A stretch of 64,000 bases of DNA from a virus. Position numbers and translations under genes: made by a program. Where the stretch lies: the IMG/VR virus record IMGVR_UViG_3300017963_000025, positions 21,382 to 85,381 of that record, one strand, 5' to 3'. Below the pieces are notes generated by a model that was not told the DNA's origin, did no database searches, and worked only from the letters and a program-made list of their open reading frames with translations. Below, piece after piece: positions 59,530-60,812 of the stretch (positions are counted from its first letter, which is position 1; each line of letters opens with the position of its first letter).

Positions 59530-59754
59530 ATGCCTTTTGAAATTGATGTTGGAAAATCGACATGGGATGAATCCAAACTTGCATTGATTATGATGATTTC
59601 AAATTTGCAAGATGACGTGCGCGAACTACAAGTTGAAAATCGGAAACGGGAGGCATGGCAGACTGCTATGGGGGTGAAATTTGCCACTATCGGAATTGGT
59701 TTGGGGTTGTTGGTCCAATTTTTGCCGGAGATTGTCAAATGGCTAAAAAAATGA
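59530..59754 (+). CDS. XhlA-like membrane-anchored protein
   Basis: Seen: 74 residues from ATG 59530. A coiled-coil-like helix (ISNLQDDVRELQVENRKREAWQ) is followed by one C-terminal transmembrane segment (FATIGIGLGLLVQFLPEIV) and WLKK, the layout of XhlA/phage lysis-associated proteins that work with holins. It overlaps the PAS gene by 16 bp. It may be part of the lysis apparatus. Confidence 0.65.
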   Translation: MPFEIDVGKSTWDESKLALIMMISNLQDDVRELQVENRKREAWQTAMGVKFATIGIGLGLLVQFLPEIVKWLKK

Positions 59755-60812
59755 CCGATGTCTACGGGAAGATTCTGTATTGCATCACCTATAAATGGTA
59801 CGGGATTCCCAAGGGGCTTCGTACCATTATTTGGTTTGTGTCCTCCACCTGTTTTTTGGCGGGGTGTATTTATTGGACCGTGGACACCCTGAAAGATGTA
59901 ATCTTTCGGCAACCCTCGATCTGGTTTTTGGGGAATATCACAGACCAGTTTTTCAAGTTGGTTGGCAAGGAACCGAGTATTTCAAACTTGTCCGTGATGG
60001 CTGACACGTTGTTGTCCATTATTATCGCGGCGGGGATACGTATCGGCGTGTCCGTGGGATTCGCGGTCAAATTGGTGTGGTCGAAAGACAAGCTAAGCAA
60101 CAGTATTCAGGAAAAAGCTGACAGGCTGAAAGAGGAATTGAAAACCGCGAACTTCAAAATAATTCGGGAACAAGAGGCTCGTGAATTGTCCGACGCACGA
60201 TACCAGAATATTTTCAAGTTCAATGGCCTTGCCAGTTTTCTGATGGACAAGCACACCCTACGGATCGTGGAAGTGAATGAAAAATTCACCCAATTACTCG
60301 GCTATTCACCGGATGATGTGGCGGATCGCTCATTTGTTCCTATTGTACATGATTCCCAACGGGAGAGTGTACGGGGGATTTTTGAGCTATACCGGTCACA
60401 GGGCCGGTCGGATCATGCGATGTTCGAACTACGGGTGTATACGAAAAAAGGGAAAACAATCCGGGTGTTTTTTTCCATGGCTCCGATCAACGGATCTTAT
60501 ATCCACTGTGGATTCTTTTTCCTTAGCTCCACCCCAAAATTCGGGGAGTTGATGAAAGAAATCGGCGTACCGGGAGAGGTGGTCGATGCTATGCTGGCCT
60601 ACCAACGATCCCGTGCGGAACATGATTCACAGTACTCCCCCGTACCTCTTTATTATAGTCAGGACGGAAAAGCCGGGGCCATTACCGTAAATCCGGATGA
60701 GATTGTGTGTCAGGAAGAAACAATACGAATGTTGGCTGACTATTCGGATGGCGATGTCGCCCAAGACGATTTGGATTATGCGGTGGAATGCAAAGTAAAG
60801 AAAAAGGAGTGA
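59739..60812 (+). CDS. Membrane-anchored PAS-domain protein
   Basis: Seen: 357 residues from ATG 59739 (CGGAG upstream). Two transmembrane helices (about 29-48 and 86-113), a charged helix/coiled coil (118-152), then a PAS domain at 153-265: YQNIFKFNGLASFLMD, IVEVNEKFTQLLGYSPDDVADRSFVPIVHD, and a final beta-sheet with SMAPINGSYIHCGFF. PAS domains bind small ligands or haem/flavin and dimerise to sense redox, light or voltage; their presence in a phage lysis/tail operon is unusual. No kinase or cyclase follows it, and the last 90 residues are unassigned and acidic. Confidence 0.8.
   Translation: MAKKMTDVYGKILYCITYKWYGIPKGLRTIIWFVSSTCFLAGCIYWTVDTLKDVIFRQPSIWFLGNITDQFFKLVGKEPSISNLSVMADTLLSIIIAAGIRIGVSVGFAVKLVWSKDKLSNSIQEKADRLKEELKTANFKIIREQEARELSDARYQNIFKFNGLASFLMDKHTLRIVEVNEKFTQLLGYSPDDVADRSFVPIVHDSQRESVRGIFELYRSQGRSDHAMFELRVYTKKGKTIRVFFSMAPINGSYIHCGFFFLSSTPKFGELMKEIGVPGEVVDAMLAYQRSRAEHDSQYSPVPLYYSQDGKAGAITVNPDEIVCQEETIRMLADYSDGDVAQDDLDYAVECKVKKKE

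Follow-up and report, generated by a model that had tools for sequence, protein, structure and literature searches.

The DNA examined here, hereafter the window, is a stretch of 64,000 nt corresponding to bases 21382–85381 of an 85,381-bp viral contig (IMG/VR record IMGVR_UViG_3300017963_000025). On its + strand, a gene at nt 59739–60812 codes for a 357-aa membrane protein composed of two transmembrane (TM) helices, a long helix, a PAS domain and a 100-aa tail; its open reading frame (ORF) is exact, with a GGAG upstream of the ATG at nt 59739 and the stop codon at nt 60810–60812. The original prediction, made from the sequence alone, had described this gene as a PAS protein devoid of an output domain, placed beside an XhlA-like gene in a lysis neighbourhood and possibly tuning the timing of lysis to the energy state of the cell. 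The observed features of the protein were confirmed as real.

The membrane PAS protein and its genomic context

Four Pfam models matched the protein above their cut-offs, the best being PAS_9 (3.6e-11, 43.7 bits against a curated cut-off of 27), followed by PAS (30.9), PAS_3 (30.5) and PAS_8. In an AlphaFold2 model, computed with an alignment of 53 viral PAS sequences as input, the strands and helices of the PAS core (approximately residues 160–250) reached a predicted local distance difference test (pLDDT) score of 88–96, with the last strand modelled poorly. Comparison of the protein with the PDB by Foldseek returned 500 matches at E<=0.001; the 50 best were PAS/LOV domains or proteins containing one, with a TM-score (by target) of up to 0.79 for PAS domains. 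The protein is thus a member of the PAS superfamily by both sequence and fold, as had been proposed, and the Pfam, model and PDB evidence places the domain at about residues 165–258 (nt 60231–60512). The flavin-associated LOV motif GxNCR was looked for in the protein and not seen, and nothing in the analysis pointed to a particular ligand.

The two TM helices expected from the sequence were recovered by hydropathy at residues 30–48 (nt 59826–59882, corresponding to model helix 25–56) and 92–110 (nt 60012–60068, within model helix 81–161). The distribution of charges, +6/−1 ahead of TM1, +4/−5 between the two helices and rich in K/R beyond TM2, is consistent with an N-in/C-in topology with a cytoplasmic PAS domain. 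Residues 111–160 (nt 60069–60218), a putative coiled coil or cytoplasmic helix, join TM2 to the PAS domain, and the model merges TM2 and this stretch into a single 81-residue helix (residues 81–161, pLDDT 76–90). A simple heptad score was no better than that of shuffled sequences, so that the coiled coil previously claimed rests on the predicted long helix and not on a heptad pattern. The C-terminal tail (residues 259–357, nt 60513–60809) has mostly low pLDDT and no Pfam match; accordingly, the Pfam scan found no output domain, HisKA/HATPase or other, in the approximately 100 residues that follow the PAS domain.

Immediately upstream, a gene for a 74-aa protein (nt 59530–59754, + strand) shares 16 nt with the PAS gene, and the two are therefore probably translationally coupled. 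In layout it resembles XhlA, with a putative coiled-coil region followed by a C-terminal TM segment that is clear by hydropathy; at the level of sequence family the XhlA-like designation failed: no Pfam or PHROG match was obtained even at E<1, nor any match among phage proteins, and its heptad score did not exceed that of shuffled sequences.

The contig belongs to a siphovirus-like phage, whose capsid protein shares 44–48% identity with its counterparts in Stenotrophomonas DLP5 and Vibrio phages. Downstream of the capsid gene lie those for a tape measure of 1850 aa, for tail proteins and for a fibre. The PAS gene lies between the tail hub genes (nt 54832–59513), which include a tail/baseplate protein (nt 54832–56652, + strand; phrog_6079 tail protein, 3.9e-11), and the tail fibre gene (nt 61140–64000, + strand; PHROG tail match, 7.1e-23), from which it is separated by a gene for a 118-aa protein of no clear family (nt 60817–61173, + strand). 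The last 123 bp of the window (nt 63878–64000, + strand) recur without a difference, as a direct repeat, in the opening 123 bases of the contig, where the fibre gene also carries on; the genome is thus complete, with a circular map. Its single recognised endolysin (Peptidase_M15_3, 8.2e-18; contig nt 8360–8719) is encoded downstream of the portal gene. In L002, contig coordinates 5481–8803 span a portal-like gene, a 311-aa uncharacterised ORF, an M15 peptidase endolysin and a tRNA-Met, and this portal/endolysin group is far from the capsid genes (contig ≈63 kb), an unusual order for late genes. At L002 2900–5500, a uracil-DNA-glycosylase-like domain (UDG, 1.6e-15) is fused to the N-terminus of a DNA polymerase A.

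Sequence relatives of the PAS protein were found neither in 50,697 phage records nor in GTDB genomes, nor by exact 8-mer patterns in 2.9 million viral contigs; two weak bacterial/archaeal PAS matches were located in plasmids. The hub protein, used as a synteny query, retrieved no viral contigs and only partial matches in Vibrio phages; at the comparable place these Vibrio relatives encode DUF5675-like proteins and membrane proteins with several helices, and no PAS gene. When phage records were searched by tblastn with a generic PAS consensus, hardly any PAS domains came up. Accessory genes are known to cluster at tail/lysis junctions, and a lack of relatives is what one would expect of such a gene; the PAS gene might then serve superinfection exclusion or host takeover, or be a moron of another kind, brought to such a junction by chance. 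We deem this improbable, as the tight overlap of a PAS gene with a coiled-coil membrane gene, repeated in unrelated phages (see below), argues for a functional pair.

PAS genes without output domain in unrelated phages

Because the window protein lacks sequence relatives, the 2.9 million viral contigs were scanned for the PAS core motif with degenerate DNA patterns, irrespective of neighbouring genes, and relatives of three recovered PAS-only proteins provided a second route of retrieval. Many matches were ordinary kinases; PAS proteins without an output domain were found in 11 independent viruses, the window included. Gene starts at the scanned loci are approximate, several lysis assignments rest on our own gene caller, and contig ends limit the view at L058 and L060.

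The search of other phages for a membrane PAS gene paired with an XhlA-like gene gave a positive result, in that output-less PAS genes touch XhlA-like or TM/coiled-coil genes on the unrelated viral contigs L056, L058, L059, L060/L062, L082, L089 and L094. At L082, tail genes are followed by genes for a TM/coiled-coil protein (146 aa), a PAS protein (128 aa), an SLT transglycosylase/lysozyme (1.1e-9) and a 60-aa protein with two TM helices. L060/L062 shows a fibre gene, a TM protein (154 aa), two TM/coiled-coil proteins (79 and 85 aa), a PAS protein (126 aa) and, at the contig end, a gene that opens with PG_binding_1 (3.9e-6); the opposite contig end begins within a GH19 gene (1.7e-6), followed by a holin-like gene with two TM helices and an Rz-like gene. 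L089 encodes a two-TM protein (61 aa), a PAS protein (137 aa), a TM/coiled-coil protein (123 aa) and a GH108 enzyme (1.6e-16). In L094 the order is tail, a 140-aa protein, a double PAS protein (280 aa), an XhlA-like protein (113 aa), a two-TM protein (62 aa), DUF5675 (6e-5, below cut-off) and an Rz-like gene. L056 (with the same arrangement in L016 and a diverged one in L093) carries TM/coiled-coil, PAS, four-TM and PAS genes, a gene for a 51-aa TM protein and a C39 peptidase that matches the phrog_10051 endolysin; two separate PAS-only ORFs thus flank a four-TM membrane protein within one lysis cassette (L056 3631–4716). L059 encodes a TM-PAS-coiled-coil protein, an XhlA-like protein (138 aa), a two-TM protein (77 aa) and a three-TM protein (154 aa), and at L058 a PAS gene (139 aa) overlaps an XhlA-like gene (110 aa). 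At these loci the PAS gene and the TM/coiled-coil gene either overlap or lie no more than a few bases apart, and either may come first; in the window, L059, L087 and L057/L010 a single protein combines the PAS domain with the membrane/coiled-coil part, which elsewhere has a gene of its own.

Of the 11 phage PAS genes without output, 8 have a small TM gene next to them, where the local gene content would predict 2.4 (p ≈1e-4); when the window is left out, the count is 7 of 10 (p ≈9e-4). The raw count was 9/11; the apparent TM partner in L087 proved to be a receiver domain and was rejected. Among PAS genes of the A1 subtype from bacterial genomes, taken as a control, a small TM gene adjoins 3/75 (Fisher 5e-7 versus the phage set), the controls being small and not fully matched. 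In 73 of these 75 the protein exceeds 360 aa or has at least 100 residues after the PAS domain, and the remaining two short genes, each directly upstream of a further sensor-type ORF, look like split kinases. An endolysin-type gene (SLT, GH19, GH108, C39 or DUF5675) occurs within three genes of the PAS gene in half of the other output-less PAS phages (5/10: L056, L060/L062, L082, L089 and L094). In a PAS tree, phage domains fall among bacterial ones, with a support too weak for firm claims on their origin.

Among viral proteins, Foldseek retrieved other phage proteins annotated as PAS domain together with R9ZZL0 of Cellulophaga phage phi19:1 (1.6e-4), assigned by protein size (240 aa) to gp108 (nt 54202–54924; phrog_31932). 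In phi19:1, the TM genes gp105–gp107, with a weak holin match for gp107 (0.0065), precede the PAS-like gp108, and the lysozyme gp113 comes after; gp108 is also present in phi10:1, Nekkels_1 and Nekkels_2. Profile comparison of gp108 with the PAS alignment was merely suggestive (P 0.01, control 0.33), so that its PAS identity rests on the structural match. This hypothetical, unstudied protein resembles the window protein in its membrane-associated long helix, its PAS-like fold and its place in a membrane-gene cluster before a lysozyme, but shares no significant sequence similarity with it.

The phi19:1 record bears on whether such proteins belong to the virion. A structural or DNA-injection protein using the PAS fold as a protein-interaction module, a purpose that PAS folds can serve on their own, would suit the position of the window gene between tail hub and fibre. 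Tandem mass spectrometry (MS/MS) virion annotations in phi19:1, however, cover gp101–gp104 and not gp105–gp108, which disfavours a virion role for gp108. Together with the two TM helices and inside-positive topology of the window protein, and the holin/endolysin genes that adjoin comparable genes, this makes a virion protein quite improbable.

A possible role in lysis control

Given these associations, the reading we favour, at a probability of about 50%, is that the window PAS protein is an inner-membrane sensory subunit of the lysis-control machinery of the phage. Few other plausible small membrane proteins emerged from a hydropathy scan of the genome ORFs, mainly a signal-peptide protein (window nt 11378) and small lipoproteins (window nt 10677 and 17089), so that by elimination the XhlA-like/PAS pair would be the leading holin-type candidate. 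The cytoplasmic PAS domain would sense a small molecule, a cofactor state or a partner; the change would pass through the long signalling helix to the two TM helices and to the XhlA-like protein, with which it may interact, and the complex would delay or permit holin/endolysin action. Such a protein would need no enzymatic output, the membrane partner being the effector, and other phages would hold the same parts either as separate TM/coiled-coil and PAS-only genes in lysis cassettes or fused as in the window. Three points are proposed here from gene arrangement and predicted structure: that PAS domain and membrane partner are coupled, that a signal is sensed, and that the time of lysis changes as a result.

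Several observations weigh against this proposal. Around the circular genome, the sole recognised endolysin is ≈11.4 kb downstream of the PAS gene and none adjoins it; the locus thus lacks the endolysin within a few genes that marks a phage lysis cassette, and the window alone, where the evidence is thin, does not prove a lysis role. The XhlA-like label of the 74-aa protein describes its architecture only, and, without sequence relatives, the neighbourhood of the window protein has no support from synteny. The endolysin-proximity statistic is by itself modest (p 0.003–0.06 according to the background assumed). Finally, a TM-coiled-coil-PAS protein and a stand-alone receiver are encoded between capsid and neck genes in L087/L088, and neither L069, a jumbo contig, nor L057 has a lysis link, so that output-less PAS genes are not exclusive to lysis loci. 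The lysis interpretation is hence partly supported: fold, topology, lack of output and pairing in other phages agree with it, and the missing adjacent endolysin does not.

In L087 the TM-coiled-coil-PAS gene overlaps the response-regulator receiver (2.8e-19) at 6725–7653, and the same is seen in L088. Conserved kinase sets are present at L061 5651–8735 (HATPase 4.1e-15), L055 5279–7502, L031 6022–8401 and L052 5905–9291, and the last gene of the L061-type sets resembles one for a membrane effector in a two-component system of the phage.

These loci lend themselves to an explanation in which the PAS protein acts on host or phage two-component signalling, as a membrane decoy or an adaptor for kinases and receivers, and lies near lysis genes merely as a matter of late expression. 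The overlap with a receiver at a capsid–neck position speaks for it, as do the four contigs with a PAS histidine kinase, a receiver-like protein and a coiled-coil/two-TM protein. Yet the window gene has neither a receiver nor a kinase beside it, most output-less PAS genes adjoin XhlA-like or TM genes, several with holin and endolysin, and even the kinase sets end in a gene for a membrane coiled-coil protein, the L061 set following an Amidase_2 endolysin. We regard this explanation as rather unlikely.

Returning to lysis control, the presence of PAS genes in the lysis clusters of unrelated phages suggests that, in some of them, the bursting of the cell is timed by sensing its state. More tentatively, and with less confidence than for the window protein itself, many lineages may have independently recruited host PAS domains, minus the kinase output, into lysis cassettes as XhlA-like-coupled, post-translational sensors of redox, oxygen, energy or metabolite state, which would form a general and undescribed class of lysis-timing devices. 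Burst size depends on when lysis occurs, a moment usually taken to be set by the accumulation of holin, with superinfection sensing of the T4 type as the main known environmental input. If the proposal is correct, a cytoplasmic PAS domain connected to membrane proteins of the lysis machinery would let phages monitor host metabolism directly at the time of lysis, and the structural relative upstream of a lysozyme in cultured Cellulophaga phages makes the idea testable.

Comparison with known systems

No description of PAS domains in phage lysis cassettes was found in open-access papers, preprints and subscription papers being outside the scope. Among the closest known systems is the XhlA/XhlB lysis pair of Bacillus PBSX-type phages (Pfam XhlA), in which a small coiled-coil protein with a C-terminal TM segment is encoded at the tail/lysis junction; the 74-aa protein of the window, similar in its predicted layout, differs in having no sequence match to any Pfam or PHROG family, a PAS membrane protein as partner and the endolysin elsewhere. 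Bacterial TM-PAS-HisKA-HATPase sensor kinases share the TM-helix-PAS architecture and the fold of the window protein, from which the kinase/HATPase output is absent. A phage PAS domain controlling lysis versus lysogeny is known from VqmA-Phage of vibriophage VP882 (PMC8284805), which is, however, a soluble transcription factor with a DNA-binding output, unlike the output-less membrane protein described here. In lysis inhibition of T4, where the antiholins RI and RIII act on holin T, and of ICP1, phage membrane factors read the environment and alter the time of lysis (PMC7182436); there, superinfection is sensed through a periplasmic antiholin without any PAS domain, whereas the sensor of the window protein would be cytoplasmic.
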